Source: Streptomyces sp. NBC_00539
Lineage (GTDB): Bacteria; Actinomycetota; Actinomycetes; Streptomycetales; Streptomycetaceae
NCBI RefSeq assembly: GCF_036346105.1
Contig: NZ_CP107811.1
Location: forward strand, 1,178,001-1,242,000
Length of the DNA: 64,000 nucleotides
Direction of reading: 5' to 3'
This document shows, piece by piece, positions 9,540 through 22,127 of the stretch. A program made the translations under genes and the position numbers. Below the pieces are notes generated by a model. That model saw only the letters and a list, made by a program, of their open reading frames with translations, did not search any database and was not told the DNA's origin. Position 1 is the first letter of the stretch. Each line of letters opens with the position of its first letter.

Positions 9540-11279
9540 CTACCCGGCGGCCGTCGGTCCGGCGGAGTCGTCGCGGGGCGGGGAGACGGCCCTGTCCTGG
9601 TCGACCACGTCGCGCTGGCCCTCGTTCTCGATGCGCTCCAGTTCCGAGACCTCGAAGTGGTGCAGGTCGAAGGCCGGTGATTCGGAACGTACCCGCGGCA
9701 GCGTGACGAAGTTGTGGCGCGGCGGCGGGCAGGAGGTGGCCCATTCCAGCGAACGGCCGTACCCCCACGGGTCGTCGACGGTGACGCGCGGCGCGTACTT
9801 CGCGGTCTTCCACAGGTTGTAGAGGAAGGGGAGGGTCGATCCGCCGAGCAGGAACGCGCCGATGGAGGAGACGGTGTTCAAGGTGGTGAACCCGTCGGCG
9901 GCGAGGTAGTCGGCGTAGCGGCGCGGCATGCCTTCGGCTCCCAGCCAGTGCTGGACGAGGAAGGTGAGGTGGAAGCCGACGAACAGCGTCCAGAAGTGGA
10001 TCTTGCCGAGGCGTTCGTCGAGCATGGTGCCGGTCATCTTCGGCCACCAGAAGTAGAAGCCGGCGAACGTCGCGAACACCACCGTGCCGAAGACCACGTA
10101 GTGGAAGTGGGCGACGACGAAGTAGGAGTCCGTGACGTGGAAGTCCATCGGCGGCGAGGCCAGGATGATGCCGGTCAGACCGCCGAAGAGGAAGGTCACC
10201 AGGAAGCCGATGGACCACAGCATCGGCGTCTCGAAGGACAGCGAGCCCTTCCACATCGTGCCGATCCAGTTGAAGAACTTCACCCCGGTCGGCACCGCGA
10301 TCAGGAACGTCATGAAGGAGAAGAACGGCAGCAGCACGGCCTGCGTGGCGAACATGTGGTGCGCCCACACCGTCACCGACAGCCCCGCGATCGCGATCGT
10401 CGCCCCGACCAGGCCGAGGTAGCCGAACACCGGCTTGCGGGAGAAGACGGGGAGGATCTCGGTGATGATCCCGAAGAACGGGAGGGCGATGATGTAGACC
10501 TCCGGGTGCCCGAAGAACCAGAACAGGTGCTGCCACAGGATCGGCCCGCCGTTGGACGGGTCGAAGACGTGCGCACCGAACTTGCGGTCCGCCTCCAGCA
10601 CCAGCAGCGCCGCCGCCAGGACCGGGAAGGCGAACAGGACCAGCACCGAGGTCAGCAGGATGTTCCAGGTGAAGATCGGCATCCGGAACATCGTCATCCC
10701 GGGCGAGCGCATGCAGATGATCGTGGTGACGAAGTTGACGGCGCCCAGGATCGTCCCGAATCCCGACATGGCCAGCCCCATGATCCACATGTCGCCGCCG
10801 ATGAACGGGGTCCGCTCCACGCTGCTGAGCGGGGTGTAGGCGGTCCAGCCGAAGTCGGCCGTGCCCTGCGGCGTGAGCAGGCTCCCCACGACGATGATGC
10901 CGCCGAACAGGAACAGCCAGAACGACAGCATGTTCAGCCGGGGGAACGCCACGTCCGGCGCCCCGATCTGCAGGGGCATGATCGCGTTGGCGAACCCGGC
11001 GAACGTCGGCGTCGCGAAGAACAGCAGCATGATCGTGCCGTGCAACGTGAAGATCTGGTTGTACTGCTCGTTGGAGACGATCTGCATACCCGGCCGGGCC
11101 AGCTCCGCCCTCAGCAGGAGGGCGAGCACGCCGCCGATGACGAAGAAGACGAACGAGGCGATCAGGTAGAGGTGCCCGATCTTCTTGTGGTCCGTCGTCG
11201 ACAGCCAGGCCACCACGACCTGTCCCACGGTTCTCCCCCGCGTGGGAATGGGCGCGATCGGCTCGGTGACAGTGGTCAT
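9540..11279 (-). CDS. ctaD: Cytochrome c oxidase subunit I
   Basis: A 579-residue heme-copper oxidase subunit I: reduces O2 to water at the heme a3-CuB centre and pumps protons. Signature segments are intact: S-T-T-D-H-K-K-I-G near the N terminus, W-F-F-G-H-P-E-V-Y with the His-Tyr crosslink, W-A-H-H-M-F for the CuB histidines, and [12 protein letters not shown] for the heme ligands. About 12 membrane helices. ATG 11279 starts M-T-T-V-T-E-P. No subunit II or III gene lies in the window, so this is probably an additional copy outside the main cta-qcr cluster. Confidence 0.96.
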
Positions 11280-11449: not shown

Positions 11450-12580
11450 TCAGTCCCGCTTCTCGCCGCCCAGCAGGTTGCGGCGCATCAGGCGGGTGAT
11501 GTCCTTCGCGGTGACGATGCCGACGAGACGGCCGTCGTCGACCACGAGGAGGCGGGTACCGGTGGCCGTGCTGAGCCGGTCGAGGGCCTCGGTCAGGAAC
11601 TCGTCGGCGGAGGCGACCGCACACCTCGCGAGCGGGGTCGCCACGTCGCGCACCTGGGTGGTGTCCCGCAGCGGGTCCTGGACCGCTCCCAGCCTGCGCA
11701 GTTCGACGATGCCGCTGGGGCGGCCGTCGAAGTCGAGCAGCGGCACGGCGGAGTGGCGGGACGGGAGGGCCACCTCGTCGATGAAGCGGCGGACGGTCAG
11801 CCAGTCGGCGCCGGTGGCGACCGGGCTGCTCATCGCGTCGGCGACCCGGACGCCCTGCAGGGCCGTGCCGATGACGGCGCGCTGCCGTTCCGCGCCCGCG
11901 ACCACCATGACGAACAGGCCGGTGAAGACCAGCCACAGTCCGCCCGAGGACCCGCGCAGCAACGAGACCCAGCCGGCGCCCATCAGCAGGACTCCGAGCA
12001 CCTGGCCGCTGCGCGACGCCGCGCGGTCGGCGCGGTCGCGGTCCCCGGTGCGCCACCACAGCAGGGCCTGCACGACGCGACCGCCGTCCAGCGGAGCCGC
12101 GGGCAGCAGGTTGAACACCCCGAGGGCCAGGTTCACCCAGCCGAGCCATCCGAGGACCGCTGCGGGCACTGCCCAGCCCGAGAGGGTGTTCAGGCCGATG
12201 CCGGCGCCGAGGGCCGCCCCGCCGATGACCAGGCTGGTCAGCGGCCCGCTCACGGCGACCGCGAAGGCCGCCGCCGCGCTCTGGGGGCGGCCCATGCGGG
12301 TCATCCCGCCCAGGGCCCACAGCGTCACGTCCTGTACGGAAATCTTCTTGCGGCGGGCCGTCGCGGCGTGCGCCGCCTCGTGCAGCAGCAGGCTCGCCAT
12401 CAGCAGCAGGGCCCCGACGGCGCTGGCGAGGGTGTACACGGCGTTCGAGTATCCCGGTGTCCAGAGGGGGAGGGTCCGGCGGCCGAGGCCGTACGCGAGG
12501 AAGACCGCCAGCAGCGGCACGCTCCAGTGCATGCGCAGCGGTACGCCGACCACGCGTCCCACGGGGACAGAGCCGTTCAT
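11450..12580 (-). CDS. Site-2-protease (M50) family membrane protein with CBS pair
   Basis: Intramembrane metalloprotease of 376 residues. The zinc site is L-L-L-H-E-A-A-H-A (HEAAH, about residue 67) and the second metal-site motif is [12 protein letters not shown] (about 153-165), both complete. About six membrane helices occupy residues 15-230, followed by two CBS domains (about 245-365) ending [20 protein letters not shown] domains bind adenine nucleotides and may gate activity. Start at ATG 12580 chosen for GGAG five bases upstream. Substrate unknown; no anti-sigma gene adjoins. Confidence 0.92.
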
Positions 12581-12691: not shown

Positions 12692-13288
12692 CTACCCGGG
12701 TGACGGACCGTGCCCGGGGCTGTGGGAGGCGTCGCCCTGCGGGGCATCGCCGTGTGCGGCGTCGTGGCTCGCGTCCCCGTGGCTCGCGTCCCCGTGGCCG
12801 GGGGCGTCGTGGCCGGAGTCGGCGTGGCCGGCGCCCCCGTCGTGACCGGCGTCCCCGTGCTCGGGGCCGTGCGCGTCGCCGGTCTCCACCTTGCCGCCGA
12901 GGCGCTCCCGCAGCGGCGCCAGGGCTTCGGCGGAGGCGGCGGTGACCACCCACCGGTCTCCGACCAGGTAGGTACCGCCGTACCCGCGGGACTCCGCCAG
13001 CCACTCGCGCTGGCCCTCGTCGGCGGTGAAGGTCGCGATCCGGTAGCCGGCCGCCCCCGCCCCGCACGCCCCTTCCCGCAGTTCTTCGGCGTCGACGGTG
13101 ATCTCGGCGGTGCAGCCGAGGGCCGCCGCCAGGTCCTGGACGCTGACGCCGTTGGCCCGGGCGGAGGCGGCGGCGACCGGGCGGACCTTCGCGTGTCCCG
13201 TGGCGCACCCGCCGCACAGCAGGGAGGCGACCAGCACGGCCACGCAGGGCGCCAGGTGGCGGGCGGTGACGCGGGGTGGTTGCGGCAT
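12692..13288 (-). CDS. Lipoprotein with His/Asp-rich C-terminal tail
   Basis: A 198-residue predicted lipoprotein: signal peptide with lipobox L-C-G-G-C (about residues 24-28). A compact domain of about 105 residues contains V-Q-D-L-A-A-A-L-G-C-T and Y-L-V-G-D-R-W-V-V-T-A. The final 60 residues are built of G-H-D, S-H-G-D and A-H-G-D units holding about a dozen His. Such tails bind Cu, Ni or Zn, so a surface metal-binding or storage role is inferred. It follows the YxFxxD-repeat lipoprotein by 31 bp. The family of the folded part is not recognised. Confidence 0.82.
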   Translation of the reverse strand: MPQPPRVTARHLAPCVAVLVASLLCGGCATGHAKVRPVAAASARANGVSVQDLAAALGCTAEITVDAEELREGACGAGAAGYRIATFTADEGQREWLAESRGYGGTYLVGDRWVVTAASAEALAPLRERLGGKVETGDAHGPEHGDAGHDGGAGHADSGHDAPGHGDASHGDASHDAAHGDAPQGDASHSPGHGPSPG

Positions 13289-13319
13289 GTCTGGTCTCCC
13301 TCGCAGAGGTGGATGTGCC

Positions 13320-14405
13320 CTACCGGTCCGCGGGGACCTTCTTGCCGGCGTCGTCGACGGCGAACCACAGGCCCTGCTTGTTGTGTCCGTTGGTCTGGCC
13401 GGGCTGGGTGTCGCCGGTGAACAGGTAGACGGGCCAGCAGTCGATCGTCAATTGCTGTGACCCGTCGGGCCGCTTCACCGATCCGACGAGTCCGGCGGCG
13501 ATTCCGGACACCTTCGTCTTGTCCACCGGCGCGGCGGGCTTCCAGGTGTCGAGGCAGGCGTCGAGGCAACCGAATTTCATGGGCCACGCACTGTCCTTGT
13601 TGAACCGGTAGAGGGTGCGCCCCTGTGCGTCGACGAGGATCTTCCCGAGTTTCGTGTCGGTGGCGACGGAGAGTTCCGTTCCCGTCCGGGCGTTCATATC
13701 GCCCATCCCGCTCCCCATTCCGCTGCCCATTCCCGAGCCCATGGCCCCGGTAGCGGGCGTGCCGGGTTTTTGGCCGCCCTTCTGGTCGACGGCCTTCTTG
13801 CCGTCGGCGGCCAGCGCGTGCCAGGTGCCGCCGACGCCTTCGCCCTTGGCCTCCCCGGCCTGGGTGTCCTTGGCGTAGCGGTACACGGGCCAGCCGCCGA
13901 GGGTGAGCTGCTTGCTGCCGTCGGCGCGGGTGACCTCGCCGAGCTGGGAGGCGTCGATGCCCTGGGCGGCGGAGGCGTCCGCCGCGGGGACGGGCGGCCA
14001 GGCGGTGGCGCAGTCGCCGGAGCAGTTCGATGTGGGGGGCTTGGCGGTGTCCTTGTCGAACCGGTAGAGGGTGAGGCCGGCGCTGTCGGTGACCACGCTG
14101 CCCACGTTCGCGATGTCCCGTACGGCGAGCTGGCCGGCCCGCACCGACGTCCCGGGCTCCACGCCGCCGTAGCCGGATCCGGCGGCGCCGGCCGCCCCGG
14201 CCGCGCCGGCCGCCGGGTCCGCCCCCGAGCCGCCGGAGCCGTATCCGCTGCCGTACCCGTTCCCTATCGCTTTGCTGTCCCCGACCGGCTGTACGGCATT
14301 TCCCGAGCGGCCGGCGTTGGTCCCGCCGCTCCCGCATCCGGCCGCCAGTACCAGTACCGCCATCACCGATCCGGCGGCGGCCGCCCCACGACGCTTGTTG
14401 TTCAC
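13320..14405 (-). CDS. SCO0930-type lipoprotein with two YxFxxD repeat units
   Basis: A 361-residue exported lipoprotein (lipobox L-A-A-G-C, about residue 24). A Gly/Ser/Ala-rich stalk with G-Y-G-S repeats follows. Then two copies of the secreted-repeat unit (COG4315) with L-T-L-Y-R-F-D-K-D and R-T-L-Y-R-F-N-K-D, each followed by paired Cys (N-C-S-G-D-C and F-G-C-L-D-A-C) and G-W-P-V-Y-R-Y / C-W-P-V-Y-L-F. A Gly-Met-rich linker separates the units. GTG 14405 has GGGAG upstream. Function of the family is unproven; context with a membrane cytochrome and a flavoprotein suggests extracytoplasmic redox or metal work. Confidence 0.88.
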   Translation of the reverse strand: MNNKRRGAAAAGSVMAVLVLAAGCGSGGTNAGRSGNAVQPVGDSKAIGNGYGSGYGSGGSGADPAAGAAGAAGAAGSGYGGVEPGTSVRAGQLAVRDIANVGSVVTDSAGLTLYRFDKDTAKPPTSNCSGDCATAWPPVPAADASAAQGIDASQLGEVTRADGSKQLTLGGWPVYRYAKDTQAGEAKGEGVGGTWHALAADGKKAVDQKGGQKPGTPATGAMGSGMGSGMGSGMGDMNARTGTELSVATDTKLGKILVDAQGRTLYRFNKDSAWPMKFGCLDACLDTWKPAAPVDKTKVSGIAAGLVGSVKRPDGSQQLTIDCWPVYLFTGDTQPGQTNGHNKQGLWFAVDDAGKKVPADR

Positions 14406-14728
14406 GGTTGCTCACTCCCTGCGTTTCCATTCGGCGTTCACTCTTCCTGGGTCATTCATAAAGCCTGGGAAGCCCCCGGAATTCGAATGGACGGGAATTT
14501 GTCAGATCACGCCAAAGGCTGAACTGGGGCCGGCCGCAGCCGTTCACGGCCGGCTCGTTCCCGGACGCGCTCGTGGCCGGCGGCGCCCATTCCTGGCCGC
14601 GCCGATTCCTGGCCGCGCCGATTGCCGGCCGCACGCATTGCCGACCGTGCGCGAGGCCGGCCTCGCGCGAGGCCGGCCTTCCATTCCTGACCGTGGTCAT
14701 TCCTGACCGTGCTCATTCCTGACCGTGC
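14406..14728. repeat. 323-bp intergenic region carrying two 16-bp tandem arrays and a hairpin
   Basis: Four 16-bp units fill 14589-14652 (ATTCCTGGCCGCGCCG twice exact, then two diverged copies). A second array of three units of CATTCCTGACCGTGCT type fills 14682-14729 and continues as a half unit into the 3' end of the NuoF-like gene. Between them GAGGCCGGCC is repeated around 14653-14680 and folds on itself. The two array units are related over CATTCCTG. The right part of the region (14406-14480) has the AT-richer promoter-like sequence of the lipoprotein gene. Confidence 0.7.
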
Positions 14729-16177
14729 TCATTCCTGGATGCGCAGCGCCAGCGCCGGGCAGCGGCGGACCGCGCGCAGCGCCTTCGGCCGCAGCCGGCC
14801 CGGGACGGGCATGACTCCCTGGGCCGGGTAGCCGTCGGCGTCCAGCCGGACGATGTCGGGCAGCAGGTCCACGCACAGCCCGTGGCCCTTGCACAGCGTC
14901 CAGTCCACGACGAGCCGTTCGGGGTTCTCGTCGGCCGGCAGCGGCAGGGCGCCCAGGACGCGCCGCCCGCAGCCGCTGCCGAGCGCGTGGTCGCGGAACT
15001 CGTCGGGGAACACGGCGAGGGCGGAGGCCACGAAGGCGGAGGTTCCGTCGGGGTGGCTGCACGCCCCGCGGCCGAGCACCGAGCGCATCCGCGCCTGGAC
15101 GGCTTCGAGGGCCGGCCGGCCGCCACCGCCGACGAGGGCGTCGACCGCGTCCGCGAGCGAGGGCAGCCCCCGCGCGCACGGCCCGCACTGCCCGGCGGAC
15201 TCGTCCGCCATCCAGCGGGTGACGCGGGCGACTTCCCCGGCCGGGCAGGTGTCGTGGGGCAGCGGCAGCACGGCGCCCGCCCCCAGTACGGCGTCGTACG
15301 AGGCGAGCGAGTTGCGGGAGAGCGCGGCGGAGCGGGCGGCGGGCGGGGCCAGCCAGCGGCCGTGATAGCCGCCTACCAGGACGCCCTGGCCGGGTTCCGA
15401 TCCGCACAGGTCCAGGACGTACGCCAGGGACGTCCCGGTCGGCACTTCGACGACCGTGGCTCCCCCGACGGTCAGCAGGACGGTGCCCGGCTCGTCGTCG
15501 AGGCCCGCCATGCGGTACTCGGCGGCTCCGAGCCGGGCGGCGACGGCCAGTTGGGCGTAGGTCTCGGTGTTGGACAGCAGGGTCGGCAGCCCGCCGAGGC
15601 CCCTTTCGCTGGTCCGCACCTTCTGCCCGGACGGCAGCGCGGGTCCGCCCTCGATCCCGTTGATCAGGGCGGTGCCCTCCCCCGTGACGAAGCGTTCGGG
15701 GAGGCGGGCCACCCGGACCCGGCGGTCCGCCGCGGCGCGTTCGGCGACGGCGGCGCGCAGCGAGCCCTCCACGTCGTCGCGGGTGACGCCGATGACCACG
15801 TCCTCGGCGCCGAGCGCGTCGGCGGCCAGGAGTGCCCCGTCGAGCACCAGGTGCGGGACGTGCAGCAGCAGGGCGGTGTCCTTGAGACAACTCGGCTCGC
15901 CCTCGCTGCCGTTGACGACGACGGCGGTGCGGCCGTCGCGGGCCCGGGCCGAGCGGGTGACGGCGCGGAGTTTGCGGGCGAAGGGGAAGCCCGCTCCGCC
16001 GCGCCCCTTGAGGTCCACGTCCTCGGCCAGCCGCACCAGTTCCTCGACGGGGTAGCGGGGCAGCGTCCCGTGCACGGTCAAGTGCCCGGCGAGGTCGAGG
16101 CGGGGTGCGGCGTCGAGCCCGGCCAGCAGACGGGGCATGCCCACGCAGCCGAGGGCCGGGCGGGACACGCCGGTCAC
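14729..16177 (-). CDS. NuoF-like FMN/iron-sulfur flavoprotein fused to a C-terminal ferredoxin
   Basis: A 482-residue soluble electron carrier. Residues about 55-75 hold the NADH/FMN loop L-K-G-R-G-G-A-G-F-P. N-G-S-E-G-E-P-S at about 90 completes the flavin site. S-A-G-Q-C-G-P-C-A-R-G (about 325) plus a later Cys supply one 4Fe-4S cluster as in complex I subunit F. The last 70 residues are a ferredoxin-like domain with C-K-G-H-G-L-C and a distal C-P. The HC-motif spacing suggests a single cluster. It is not part of a nuo operon. GTG 16177 overlaps the TGA of the membrane-cytochrome gene. Likely moves electrons from NAD(P)H toward that membrane protein. Confidence 0.88.
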   Translation of the reverse strand: MTGVSRPALGCVGMPRLLAGLDAAPRLDLAGHLTVHGTLPRYPVEELVRLAEDVDLKGRGGAGFPFARKLRAVTRSARARDGRTAVVVNGSEGEPSCLKDTALLLHVPHLVLDGALLAADALGAEDVVIGVTRDDVEGSLRAAVAERAAADRRVRVARLPERFVTGEGTALINGIEGGPALPSGQKVRTSERGLGGLPTLLSNTETYAQLAVAARLGAAEYRMAGLDDEPGTVLLTVGGATVVEVPTGTSLAYVLDLCGSEPGQGVLVGGYHGRWLAPPAARSAALSRNSLASYDAVLGAGAVLPLPHDTCPAGEVARVTRWMADESAGQCGPCARGLPSLADAVDALVGGGGRPALEAVQARMRSVLGRGACSHPDGTSAFVASALAVFPDEFRDHALGSGCGRRVLGALPLPADENPERLVVDWTLCKGHGLCVDLLPDIVRLDADGYPAQGVMPVPGRLRPKALRAVRRCPALALRIQE

Positions 16178-17319
16178 TGGCGCCCCCGCGCGCCGCCGAG
16201 CGGTTCACCCGGGCGGTCTGCCACGCCGAGCCTGCTCGGTATGAACACCGCGGGATAGGGCGGCGCGCCGTACGGGGGTGCGGGGTACGGCGGGGGCGGA
16301 TACGGCGGCGGGGCCGGCCTGGACTGCGTCCCCGGCCCGGCAGCGGCCCGGGCGGTGAGCAGCGGATCTCCGGGCAGCGGGTCTCCGGGCAGCAGGTCTC
16401 CGGGCAGCGGACCGGAGCCCGCCCCGCCCGCGGCGGCCGGCTGCGTCTGGCGGGCCAGCCGTGCGGTGAGGCGGGCCGCCGCCCATTCGGCGGGTTTGCG
16501 GACGAACGGCCTCGGCGTGCGCGGCGGCCCCTGGCCGGGCGTGCGGGACGGGGGCGGCGCCACGACGGCCGGGCGGGCCGGGAGTGCGCGCAGCCGCGCC
16601 CGCAGCCGGATGACGAGGACGGCGGCGACACCGGCCAGGCAGAGCCCGTACGCCACGGTCACCCAACCGGCCGCGGCGCGCCCGGCTTTGAGGCCGTGCA
16701 CCAGTGAGGCGCCCCAGGCGGGGTACGCGCCCATGTGCAGGGCCCGCCACCACAGCGAGCGGCCTTTGGTGGCGAAGGCGCTGCGGGCCGCGCCCGAGAC
16801 GGCCACGGCGACGAAGAGGTACCCGGCCAGTGTGCCGAGCCCGATCAGCAGGGGCCGGTCGGGGTCGGCGAACGGCAGGACGGCGGATGCGGCGCCGGTC
16901 TGCGACTGCGCGACCTTGACCCATATGTGCAGGGCGAGGAAGCCCAGGCCGGCGACGCCGAGTCCGCGGTGCACACCCTGGGCGACGAGCCGGTGGCCGG
17001 AAGCCAGGAGCGTGCGATCGGTGGCGGCCAGGCCCCACAGGACCGTGGAGGTGAGTGAGACGAGGGACAGGACGCCCGCGCCGTAGTCCAGGAATTCCCA
17101 CAGCCTGGTCAGCGCTCCCGCCCGGACCGCCACCGTCAGCGAGACGAGGCCGGCGAGGGCCGCGGCGGACAGTGCGGCGGGGTGCAGCCCTCCGGCGGCG
17201 GACAGCAGCGGCGGCCGGCGCACGGCGCGCCGTCCCGCCGCCGCGGTGGCCGCACCGGCGTGGCGTCTGGTGTGGCGGGCCCGGTGAGAGCGTGGCGTAC
17301 GGGGCTGGGACAAGGGCAT
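16174..17319 (-). CDS. Ferric-reductase-like / cytochrome b-type membrane protein
   Basis: A 381-residue protein. An Arg-rich cytoplasmic head is followed by about six membrane helices (residues 45-245) with His pairs in G-H-R-L-V-A-Q-G-V-H-R-G-L-G, L-A-L-H-I-W and A-L-H-M-G-A-Y-P-A-W-G-A-S-L-V-H-G, suitable as bis-His heme b ligands. The C-terminal third is cytoplasmic-looking low complexity: P-G-D-P-L-P-G-D repeats and a Pro-Tyr-rich stretch. No FAD/NAD domain of its own, so the coupled NuoF-like protein probably feeds it. ATG 17319 with GGGAG upstream. Confidence 0.85.
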   Translation of the reverse strand: MPLSQPRTPRSHRARHTRRHAGAATAAAGRRAVRRPPLLSAAGGLHPAALSAAALAGLVSLTVAVRAGALTRLWEFLDYGAGVLSLVSLTSTVLWGLAATDRTLLASGHRLVAQGVHRGLGVAGLGFLALHIWVKVAQSQTGAASAVLPFADPDRPLLIGLGTLAGYLFVAVAVSGAARSAFATKGRSLWWRALHMGAYPAWGASLVHGLKAGRAAAGWVTVAYGLCLAGVAAVLVIRLRARLRALPARPAVVAPPPSRTPGQGPPRTPRPFVRKPAEWAAARLTARLARQTQPAAAGGAGSGPLPGDLLPGDPLPGDPLLTARAAAGPGTQSRPAPPPYPPPPYPAPPYGAPPYPAVFIPSRLGVADRPGEPLGGARGRQ

Positions 17320-18928: not shown

Positions 18929-18975
18929 CCGGCCCCGGTTCCCTCCTCGTCAACGCGGGGAGGGCCCGGGGCCGG
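18929..18975. terminator. Bidirectional hairpin between converging regulator and sigma genes
   Basis: CCGGCCCCGG at 18929-18938 pairs with CCGGGGCCGG at 18966-18975, extended inward by CCCTCC/GGAGGG. The sigma-factor stop codon (18950-18952) sits in the loop region. It can serve both converging transcripts. Confidence 0.6.
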
Positions 18976-19897
18976 ACGCGTGTGCGGCCAGGGCCGCGTT
19001 GAGGTCGCGCAGTTCCTCGTACGCCCGGGAGCAGGAACGGCATCCCGCCAGATGCCGGCGGAGCCCCGCGCCCCGGGGTGCGGCCCGGCGCCGGACGGCC
19101 GAGCCGAGCAGCGGCGCGTACGGCCGGCACCGCTCGTCGCCGACCGCGGCCGCACCGAGGTGGGCGCACAGGTAGGCCTCGCGCAGCCCCTCGCGGGCGC
19201 GGAAGGCGAGCGAGGTCACGGCGCTGGGGGTGATCCCGAACAGCACCGGCATCTGGTGGGGGCAGTCGTCCTCGACGAGCGTGTGCCACAGGACGGCCTT
19301 CCAGCGCCGGGGCAGGGAGTGGAAGGAGCGGGCGGCCAGCCGGCGCTCCTCCTCCGACAGCAGCCGCTGCTGCGGGTCCTCGCCGCAGGGGCCCGGGTGG
19401 CACCAGGCTTCGACGTCCGGGGTCAGGACGGTCCGGCCGTCTCCCGCCCGCCATTCGACGGCGGTGTGACGGACCACCGCCAGCAGGTACGGGCGCCAGT
19501 GCTCCCGCGGCCCGGCGCCGGAACGGACGGCCTGGAGGGTACGGACGAAGGCCTCCGAGACGAGGTCTTCGGCGTCCTGCGGGGCACGGCAGCAACCGCG
19601 CGCGCAGGCCAGCAGGGCAGCCCGGTGGCGCCGGTACAGCAGGTCGCAGACGTCGGCGTCCGCGGCGCCGCGAGCGTACGAGCGTCTGAGCCGCCGGATG
19701 AGTTCCCGGTCACTGGGCGTCGCCCCACCGATCGGCGGCGCGCCGTCATCGGCCGCTGCCCCGCCCTCGGGCGGTGCGACGTCGCCGGGCGGTGCGACGT
19801 CGCCGGGCCGTGCAGCGTCGTCGGGCCGTGCAGCGTCGTCGGGCAGCGCGCAGTCGTCGGACAGCGCGCGCGCCGTGGGGCCGTGGGAGCCGGACAT
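18950..19897 (-). CDS. ECF-like RNA polymerase sigma factor with C-terminal zinc-binding segment
   Basis: A 315-residue sigma-70-family protein. The N-terminal 70 residues are low complexity with hexapeptide repeats (P-D-D-A-A-R, P-G-D-V-A-P). Region 2 follows (L-L-Y-R-R-H-R-A-A-L-L-A-C-A-R ... D-A-E-D-L-V-S-E-A-F-V-R-T-L), then region 4 (I-T-P-S-A-V-T-S-L-A-F-R-A-R-E-G-L-R). At the end H-L-A-G-C-R-S-C resembles the HxxxCxxC of zinc anti-sigma proteins. So sensor and sigma may be one polypeptide. ATG 19897 has GAGGAG 8 nt upstream. No separate anti-sigma gene is adjacent. Confidence 0.87.
   Translation of the reverse strand: MSGSHGPTARALSDDCALPDDAARPDDAARPGDVAPPGDVAPPEGGAAADDGAPPIGGATPSDRELIRRLRRSYARGAADADVCDLLYRRHRAALLACARGCCRAPQDAEDLVSEAFVRTLQAVRSGAGPREHWRPYLLAVVRHTAVEWRAGDGRTVLTPDVEAWCHPGPCGEDPQQRLLSEEERRLAARSFHSLPRRWKAVLWHTLVEDDCPHQMPVLFGITPSAVTSLAFRAREGLREAYLCAHLGAAAVGDERCRPYAPLLGSAVRRRAAPRGAGLRRHLAGCRSCSRAYEELRDLNAALAAHASGPGPSPR
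19765..19872. repeat. Six imperfect 18-bp tandem units inside the sigma gene
   Basis: Units begin at 19765, 19783, 19801, 19819, 19837 and 19855. The first pair and the second pair are nearly identical within themselves. They encode the hexapeptide repeats of the N-terminal extension and are in frame, so unit loss or gain would change only its length. Confidence 0.75.
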
Positions 19898-20036: not shown

Positions 20037-21419
20037 TCAGCGGCAGGCCCGCCCGCCGTTGATGCAGCGCACGGCACCGGCCATCAGCCCGTCCGACATG
20101 ACGTTGATGAAGTCGCCGTGGTCGGTCACCGGCTTGTGCAGCTGTTCGGGGAAGCTGTCCACGGCGAACCGCGCACCGGGCGGCACCGCGTAGGTGATCC
20201 GCTGCACGAGCTGCGGGATGGCCTTGAACCCGGACGGGCAGGAGCCGTCGCGGCGGGCGAAGGCCACGTGGGTGCGGTGGTTGGCGCTGTCGGCGTTCTT
20301 CCCGTCCCAGCAGCTCTGGAAGTTGAAGGTCCGTACGACGTCACTGCCCTTCGGGCAGACCGGGTACTTGTCCTTCAACTGGCGGTTCTCGAACCCGGTG
20401 CAGCTCCAGGAGGCGTTCGCGTTGGCCGTGCCGTTGGTGAGGGCCTTCGCGTCACCGGTGATGATCCGCAGGAAGCGCGGCATCGCGGTGACCGGTCCCG
20501 TGGCACTGCCCTTGTAGTCGATCGTCACCTGCTTCGGCTGGAGGATGGTGCCGACGTTGGCGTCCTGGCCGCCGCCCGGCGCCTTCGCGTCCTTCTCCGC
20601 CCGGCCGTCGCGCAGCCGCAGCACCGGCCAGTAGTAGGTGGACTGGTCCCCGTTCGTGCAGGTGGTGCCGGACGCCGCGAGGCTGTTGTTGGTGGAGAAC
20701 CCGTCCGTGGTCTTGTTGCCGACGTAGTCGTGCATGTGGTGCGCGCCGTTGCCCACGCCCGGCGCCACGATCACGTTGTCCGGGTTGAGGTGGCGGTTCT
20801 CGTTGCGTCCGCACTGGACGGAGAAGGACCCCTTCGACGCCCTCGCCTGGGGGGCGGGGGTGCGCACGTTGGGCTTCACCGTGCCGATGACGACGAAGTC
20901 GGAACGGGCCGGGCCGCCGGCCTTGCTCTTGGCGAGGCCCTGTGCGTCGGCGGGAGCGCCCGCCTCGGCGGCGGCATCGCCGGCGTCGGCGGCCGGCGCC
21001 TGCTTCATCGAACAGCCGCTGAGCGCCTCCAGCCCCTGCGGGCGGGCGGCGGACCGGCCGATGGCGTCGGCCATGCCGGTGATCGTCTTCTGCCGCTTGT
21101 CCTTCAACTCGCCGAGCAGGGCGTCACCCTGGGCGCGGCCGGTGGCGAGGCGCTGGTAGGAGTCGGCTATCTGGGTGTCCAACTGCGCCAGGTTCTGGTC
21201 GACTTCCGCCCGTACGGGCTCCGGCACCTCGCGGAGCCGGTCGCCCACGTCGGGACAGTCGATGGTGGCGGTCACCGGCGCCGAGCGCGCGGAGTCCTGT
21301 CCCGCGGAGGCCGCCTGTTCGACGATCACGACTCCGCCGCCGCCCAGGACGAGGGCGGACACGAGGGCGAGGGCCTTGTGGGACGGCCTCAGTCGGCGTT
21401 TGTGGCCTTTTGGGCTCAT
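20037..21419 (-). CDS. Secreted DUF1996 domain protein
   Basis: A 460-residue exported protein. A signal anchor V-S-A-L-V-L-G-G-G-G-V-V-I-V covers about residues 18-32. A helical N-terminal segment of about 100 residues follows, then the DUF1996 domain with N-P-D-N-V-I-V-A-P-G, H-H-M-H-D-Y-V-G-N and C-W-D-G-K-N landmarks (about 215-455). Function of DUF1996 is not established. It begins 9 bp after the DUF4142 gene, so the two are co-transcribed and both are exported. Confidence 0.9.
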   Translation of the reverse strand: MSPKGHKRRLRPSHKALALVSALVLGGGGVVIVEQAASAGQDSARSAPVTATIDCPDVGDRLREVPEPVRAEVDQNLAQLDTQIADSYQRLATGRAQGDALLGELKDKRQKTITGMADAIGRSAARPQGLEALSGCSMKQAPAADAGDAAAEAGAPADAQGLAKSKAGGPARSDFVVIGTVKPNVRTPAPQARASKGSFSVQCGRNENRHLNPDNVIVAPGVGNGAHHMHDYVGNKTTDGFSTNNSLAASGTTCTNGDQSTYYWPVLRLRDGRAEKDAKAPGGGQDANVGTILQPKQVTIDYKGSATGPVTAMPRFLRIITGDAKALTNGTANANASWSCTGFENRQLKDKYPVCPKGSDVVRTFNFQSCWDGKNADSANHRTHVAFARRDGSCPSGFKAIPQLVQRITYAVPPGARFAVDSFPEQLHKPVTDHGDFINVMSDGLMAGAVRCINGGRACR

Positions 21420-21428
21420 GCGATCACT

Positions 21429-22127
21429 TCACTTCGTCGGTCGGGGAACGGTGGAAGGGGCGGGCGAGACGTCCGCCAGCCCGTCGAAATCGACGAGGCC
21501 GCTGGCTTCGAGGACCGAGATGTGGTCCAGGACGGTGTTGTTGGCGTCCGTGGCCAGGTCCCGCACCATCGAGTTGCGCGTCTGCGCGCGGATCTGGGCG
21601 ACCAGGGTGAACACCTTGCCGTGCGCCCGGCGCAGCAGCTGGACGAACAGGCGCTCGTACTCGTTGCCCTGGGCCCTGTCGAGCTGGTCGAGCCAGCCCT
21701 GTTGCTGGGCGCTGGGCCGGTCGGGCAACTCCATGCCGAGGGCCTGGCCCACGTCCCGGACGTGGCGGTCGAGAGCGGTGTGGCCTTCGATGAGGTGCTC
21801 GCCGGCGGTGCGGACGGCGGGGCGCGTGGCCCGCTGTTGCGCCTGCCGTCCTGCGGGAAGTTCCCACAGCCCGGCGAGCCGCACTTTGCGGACGAAGTCC
21901 CGGTCCTGGGGCGTCAGCGGCCCGAAGGCGGTGCTCAGCGTGCCGGCGCCGTCGTCGTCGGGGGACGGGGCGGTGGCGGCCGAGGCCGTGGTGCCGCCGA
22001 ACTTCTGCACGGGGACCAGCAGCGCGACCAACGTGAACGCGAGGGCGCCGATGACGATGAGCGTCCCCATCACGTGCCGCGAGGCGACCGACATGGCGGC
22101 GACGTTCGACCGGCGGAATGACAGCAC
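21429..22127 (-). CDS. DUF4142 exported protein
   Basis: A 232-residue protein with an N-terminal membrane/signal segment (V-M-G-T-L-I-V-I-G-A-L-A-F-T-L-V-A-L-L-V) and a helical DUF4142 domain (ferritin-like bundle in related proteins): D-R-D-F-V-R-K-V-R-L-A-G-L-W-E and H-I-S-V-L-E-A-S-G-L-V-D-F motifs. GTG 22127 was chosen because AAGGAGG stands four bases upstream. Operon with the DUF1996 gene. Role unknown. Confidence 0.88.
   Translation of the reverse strand: MLSFRRSNVAAMSVASRHVMGTLIVIGALAFTLVALLVPVQKFGGTTASAATAPSPDDDGAGTLSTAFGPLTPQDRDFVRKVRLAGLWELPAGRQAQQRATRPAVRTAGEHLIEGHTALDRHVRDVGQALGMELPDRPSAQQQGWLDQLDRAQGNEYERLFVQLLRRAHGKVFTLVAQIRAQTRNSMVRDLATDANNTVLDHISVLEASGLVDFDGLADVSPAPSTVPRPTK

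Follow-up and report, generated by a model that had tools for sequence, protein, structure and literature searches.

Where would the electrons go that a NuoF-like flavoprotein hands to a membrane protein encoded beside two exported lipoproteins? This question is raised by a locus of Streptomyces sp. NBC_00539, which lies in a stretch of 64,000 nucleotides (NZ_CP107811.1, positions 1,178,001 to 1,242,000; hereafter, the window) and encodes a cytochrome b-like membrane protein (cytb), a NuoF-like protein with a fused ferredoxin (NuoF-Fd), an SCO0930-family lipoprotein with PF03640 stretches, and a lipoprotein-like protein with a His-rich tail (His-tail). The initial annotation had placed these four open reading frames on the minus strand, and all of them are present there at the coordinates given in Table 1. 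We consider it likely that they belong to a transmembrane electron-export system leading from NADH to exported acceptors, and our best reading is that this system is a branch of NuoF-linked electron export across the membrane that does without flavinylation and has exported partners of its own.

The cytb stop codon overlaps an A/GTGA start of NuoF-Fd in 70 of 75 parsed relatives (54 GTGA and 16 ATGA), and the overlap is exactly four nucleotides in 62 of the 75, with start codons as chosen in this analysis. The GTGA coupling noticed at first is, hence, present in the window and kept, with A or G as its first letter, in most relatives. Pfam and NCBIfam profiles divide the 482-residue NuoF-Fd into a NuoF 51K domain, which binds flavin mononucleotide (FMN), an NADH_4Fe-4S domain and a Fer4_15 ferredoxin. 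The protein belongs to the NuoF-type 51K family (PF01512/PF10589; 105.2 and 54.6 bits against cut-offs of 31.2 and 23.5), while it falls short of the complex I NuoF equivalog TIGR01959 (150.9 against 558.65 bits). In an alignment of 79 rows, an N3-like Fe-S site retains Cys331, Cys334 and Cys373 as well as Cys311 as invariant residues, and the first canonical N3 Cys is replaced by Ala (11 usable rows aligned). The fused ferredoxin carries the motif C429-x2-H432-x2-C435 ... C473-P, in which C429, H432, C435 and C473 are invariant in all 79 rows and P474 is kept in at least 97%. The ligand cysteines thus number three (C429, C435 and C473), not four. Three ligand cysteines followed by CP fit a [3Fe-4S] ferredoxin, and we take the tail to be of this type from the motif CxxXxxC...CP, as a prediction.

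In cytb, four histidines with spacings of 14 and 13 are invariant in all 75 relatives, and the same spacings are found in NOX2. The gene finder preferred a later start, at 17223; near relatives keep the MPLxQ...TPRS start at 17319. No Pfam or NCBIfam family was matched by cytb over the cut-off, and its structural model has NADPH-oxidase and b561-type heme proteins as fold neighbours, bacterial SpNOX being at the top, tied with b561. This predicted fold also allows for an NOX-like generator of superoxide or peroxide, in which the electrons would pass to O2 outside for surface oxidative chemistry in hyphal wall remodelling, with the DUF1996 and DUF4142 proteins encoded nearby (Table 1) as wall proteins; a fungal stress sensor of the wall or membrane contains a DUF1996 domain (PMC9148135). 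We find such a generator very unlikely, since the donor is NuoF-Fd and not an FAD/NADPH domain, and no oxidase or peroxidase was recognized by Pfam among the conserved cluster proteins scanned.

The core pair resembles a type described in a paper on flavinylated systems (PMC8238504), which lists 1797 'MsrQ-like' clusters, broadly distributed in Actinobacteria, 31 of them with an NuoF-like protein for which NAD(P)H is suggested as the donor. With about six transmembrane helices (long helices in the model) and two pairs of putative heme-ligand histidines, the heme itself being predicted, cytb shares these two features with MsrQ-like proteins. PF01794, by which that paper defines the type operationally, was not matched either in an hmmscan of cytb or in a search of the whole genome; the same search matched in four of 14 control genomes, in three of them over the cut-off.

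The MsrQ-like type is tied in print to flavinylation by ApbE. No ApbE was found in a search of the whole window genome, which matched in seven of 14 control genomes, nor at 80 related loci, a Nonomuraea locus or a plasmid locus (see below), and the FMN-binding PF04205 had no match among the cluster proteins scanned, the genome not having been searched for it. In a wider sample of 43 loci, all 21 with a fused NuoF-Fd lack ApbE, and all ten with NuoF and a separate ferredoxin have it; cytb occurs without NuoF at ten loci, nine of them with ApbE, and the other two loci hold a PF03640 gene alone and His-tail with DUF1996. A tree of NuoF (42 rows), from which the ferredoxin columns were excluded, has a single branch (99% in the Shimodaira-Hasegawa-like approximate likelihood ratio test) that separates the 32 fused rows from all others, and the same split is obtained when these columns are included. 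Because of this distribution of ApbE, the split in the tree and the ApbE-free genome, we regard the window system as a flavinylation-free branch of the MsrQ-like type. Two side observations concern the ApbE loci of the sample. At one (L129, 6001-9193), ApbE-cytb precedes a Pyr_redox_2/Reductase_C protein and several small genes of ferredoxin-like type, another electron-input module for this kind of membrane protein, and at five (L114, L115, L117, L127 and L130), small exported low-complexity proteins, which could be unusual flavinylation targets, precede ApbE.

On the other side of NuoF-Fd, the SCO0930-type protein scores 385.1 bits against the family cut-off of 275 (NF040526), and its paired cysteines, already seen in the initial annotation, are conserved (C125/C129 and C281/C285, 73 of 74 relatives for each pair). 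The His-tail protein has no Pfam or NCBIfam family over the cut-off; the character of its tail is kept, the last 60 residues containing between two and 11 His in the 54 relatives parsed, and Met joins His in some relatives. The lipoprotein pair may be transcribed separately from cytb-nuoF, because a gap of 323 bases follows nuoF in the window, together with a 16-bp tandem repeat (3.5 copies) located directly at the NuoF-Fd stop codon and, after it, a strong hairpin that is long and rich in G+C (z -2.4). In 71 of 73 parsed relatives, nuoF and the SCO0930 gene are 71-403 bases apart.

This gap and the hairpin would suit a mere neighbourhood, in which the lipoproteins and DUF proteins act in envelope stress and have their region and regulators in common with a redox pair that works independently of them. 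Eighty loci, the best kept of 130 relatives, were obtained by a contig scan with the NuoF protein (77 titled Streptomyces, two Kitasatospora and one 'Actinobacteria bacterium'); as they were picked by NuoF similarity, they are not independent, and several are cut by contig ends. The closest named relative among these best 80 of 130 is S. cirratus, at 99% in NuoF. The cytb, NuoF and SCO0930-type genes are syntenic in nearly all 80 loci, with tblastn matches for NuoF at 80, SCO0930 at 78, cytb at 77 and His-tail at 57. The unit is larger than four genes, in that the PucR-type regulator, the sigma factor, DUF1996 and DUF4142 also belong to it (counts in Table 1); the four genes first grouped together are real and conserved, but half of the unit had been missed. 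Its boundaries lie at about 12.7 and 22.1 kb, since the far-side M50 protease and ctaD genes are matched at only two and three loci, respectively.

In 296 Streptomyces genomes, cytb was found in 239, His-tail in 215 and the SCO0930 type in 259 (236 once 23 weak matches are dropped). Both cytb and His-tail occur in 214 genomes, cytb only in 25, His-tail only in one and neither in 56; for cytb and SCO0930, the corresponding numbers are 227, 12, nine (SCO0930 only) and 48. The window type of cytb (type A, by our cut at E ~1e-77) is present in 45 genomes, 31 of them with His-tail and 44 with the SCO0930 type, and 194 genomes have only a lower-scoring copy, of which 183 nevertheless have His-tail. 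Six lower-scoring cytb-NuoF-Fd pairs that were read (L118-L122 and L196) have no lipoprotein nearby and adjoin a leucyl-tRNA synthetase gene (by Pfam in L118, by eye in the others), and in one type B genome (L194-L196), His-tail adjoins DUF1996, with SCO0930 and cytb-NuoF elsewhere. When 59 genomes picked by hand were placed on a tree built from their isocitrate dehydrogenase gene (identified by eye), cytb changed at least 12 times, and among ten independent pairs, His-tail changed in the same direction as cytb in 7.5 on average and never in the opposite one (median p 0.008); an initial batch of 29 genomes pointed the same way, short of significance. For SCO0930, 5.6 pairs agree with cytb and 0.1 oppose it (median p 0.06). 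In summary, His-tail is gained and lost with cytb across Streptomyces, also where the two are unlinked.

The gene set extends to other lineages and replicons. In another actinomycete family (f84; genes identified by reading the loci, with Pfam scans of part of them in agreement), cytb and a fused NuoF-Fd stand with DUF4142 and DUF1996 at 13 of 13 loci, in other orders, and a PF03640 protein is present at seven of them. Since Nonomuraea gerenzanensis (Streptosporangiaceae) has DUF4142, DUF1996, cytb and NuoF in a row, this family may be Streptosporangiaceae. In Streptomyces sp. NBC_00648, the set is found on a linear plasmid of 223 kb (NZ_CP109039.1, 72512-85373; L277), where genes for DUF1996, PF03640, His-tail, cytb, NuoF-Fd and DUF4142 are accompanied by one for a helix-turn-helix protein, and where cytb and both lipoproteins are annotated as hypothetical proteins. 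Three more plasmids, each about 220 kb in size, also carry NuoF relatives. A content that stays constant though rearranged, in f84 and on the plasmid, argues for one functional unit. Hence, although the genes are dispersed in the type B genome, a neighbourhood without common function appears improbable, given that the genes come together again, in new orders, in another family and on a plasmid, and that His-tail co-varies with cytb while mostly unlinked to it. The conserved co-occurrence by which the initial annotation had proposed to judge the module was, thus, found in the 80 loci, the 296 genomes, the tree and another family.

Two further loci (f6; L113 and L210) have cytb-NuoF-Fd followed by a thioredoxin-fold protein (ResA/TlpA-like) and a DsbD_TM protein, the latter below the cut-off in L113, and these partners point to extracytoplasmic redox chemistry. 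They would also suit a line for thiol/disulfide or methionine-sulfoxide repair, in which cytb would reduce conserved cysteines of the two lipoproteins (PF03640 and His-tail), in the manner of MsrQ or CcdA with their partners. Both lipoproteins have conserved Cys, but these do not form a CxxC motif of the thioredoxin kind and may serve as structural disulfides, so that we judge a repair line to be unlikely.

Electron export would proceed as follows. NuoF-Fd would take electrons from NADH (or NADPH) onto FMN and pass them through its Fe-S sites, including the fused 3-Cys ferredoxin, to cytb, whose two predicted hemes b would carry them out of the cytoplasm. The acceptors outside would be the PF03640 lipoprotein, the Cys/His(Met) lipoprotein and probably the DUF1996 and DUF4142 proteins, which would hold the place of the ApbE-flavinylated carriers in related MsrQ-like/NuoF systems. 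The likeliest purpose would be to keep extracytoplasmic metal or disulfide centres reduced, and copper-centred acceptors are favoured on account of the tails rich in His and Met and of the HxH and Cys that DUF1996 conserves. A route from NAD(P)H over FMN/FeS and membrane heme to the outside had been drawn at the outset; it is still the best reading, with the co-occurrence in its favour, and we infer its cofactors, direction, acceptor and metal.

The same path could, instead, serve a metal reductase for uptake, in which Fe(III) or Cu(II), free or bound to a siderophore, would be reduced on the cell surface before import, with the His tail loading the metal. STEAP and NOX among the fold neighbours of the cytb model and the His/Met-rich tails are consistent with this, as is a VIT1-type iron transporter in 153 MsrQ-like clusters (PMC8238504). 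When conserved neighbours were tested at the 80 loci, in a scan of neighbours that was not exhaustive, no metal transporter was noticed, and we regard uptake as rather unlikely.

Table 1. Features of the unit and its surroundings in the window.
Feature	Position	Strand	Remarks
cytb, helical membrane protein	16174..17319	-	381 aa from ATG at 17319; H117, H131, H195, H208 invariant; Pro-rich C-tail
NuoF-Fd, NuoF-like FMN/NADH-binding protein with fused C-terminal 3-Cys ferredoxin	14729..16177	-	482 aa; profiles, conserved Cys
GTGA 4-nt start/stop overlap, cytb/NuoF-Fd	16174..16177	-	
SCO0930-family lipoprotein, four PF03640 (YxFxxD) stretches, two conserved Cys pairs	13320..14405	-	361 aa
His-tail, exported lipoprotein-like; small alpha-beta domain (invariant C59, C75, H140), His- or His/Met-rich tail	12692..13288	-	198 aa
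Divergent regulator with PucR-type C-terminal helix-turn-helix	17779..18918	+	matched at 77/80 loci (three at another place)
Extracytoplasmic function (ECF)-type sigma factor (Sigma70 region 2)	18950..19897	-	matched at 33/80 loci
DUF1996 (PF09362) exported protein, conserved HxHDYVGN and conserved Cys	20037..21419	-	matched at 66/80 loci
DUF4142 (PF13628) protein, hydrophobic N-terminal stretch	21429..22127	-	matched at 67/80 loci
16-bp tandem repeats and G+C-rich hairpin at/after NuoF-Fd stop	14640..14737	-	possible terminator between cytb-NuoF and the lipoprotein pair

Further observations concern single features of the region. DUF305 is matched weakly by the DUF4142 protein (21.6 bits, below the cut-off), and 18-bp tandem repeats lie at 19734-19870, within the sequence that encodes the N-terminal part of the ECF-type sigma factor. 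The cluster is followed by genes for cytochrome oxidase subunit I (9540-11279) and an M50/CBS protease (11450-12577), kept at 3/80 and 2/80 loci.

If the electron-export reading is true, one electron source is linked to four uncharacterised exported protein families (PF03640, His/Met-tail, DUF1996 and DUF4142), which would gain a first common function. We tentatively suggest, at slightly less than even confidence, that the fused NuoF-Fd lineage is a distinct flavinylation-free electron-export class in Actinomycetes, with these four as terminal electron or metal carriers, probably in copper-centred redox chemistry of the hyphal surface. ApbE with a separate ferredoxin, as opposed to a fused ferredoxin without ApbE, offers a natural contrast for how reducing power may be brought outside the membrane without covalent flavins.

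Among known systems, the SCO0930 family includes the window lipoprotein, but a second, unlinked member elsewhere in the genome (G000 C1:5772572-5773264; L193 8540-9487), which lies near a response-regulator-like gene, scores higher (428 against 385 bits). The window copy is, therefore, probably a cluster-linked paralog, and S. coelicolor SCO0930 is probably the counterpart of the unlinked copy. SCO0930 is tabulated, with values of 0.9/4.4/4.3, as one of the genes that differ between the first and the second mycelium (PMC3610822), and it also appears among afsS-affected genes (PMC2267785) and within the SigU regulon (PMC6295645); because of these data, the function of the family would bear on Streptomyces development, although SCO0930 itself probably corresponds to the unlinked copy.

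With the 51-kDa subunits of complex I NuoF, HydB and HoxF, NuoF-Fd shares the domain for FMN and NADH as well as the Fe-S region (HydB 8a6t is its best match in the PDB, E 2.2e-47), but it differs in the Ala at the first N3 Cys and in its score below the NCBIfam NuoF cut-off. NADPH oxidases and the ferric reductase superfamily (SpNOX, NOX5 and STEAP) are fold neighbours of the cytb model, whereas cytb has neither an FAD/NADPH domain nor a PF01794 match and has a separate NuoF-Fd as its putative donor. The closest likeness in make-up is to the MsrQ-like flavinylation-associated systems, which, according to PMC8238504, combine a membrane protein with paired heme-ligand His and an NuoF-like (PF10589) input and are thought to export electrons. 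Since 31 such clusters are in print, the cytb/NuoF pairing is already known. The main text of that paper lacks the terms DUF4142, DUF1996, PF03640, PF09362, PF13628 and lipoprotein. The window system thus departs from the MsrQ-like type in having no ApbE, a ferredoxin with three cysteines fused to its NuoF, and PF03640, His-tail, DUF1996 and DUF4142 proteins as partners.

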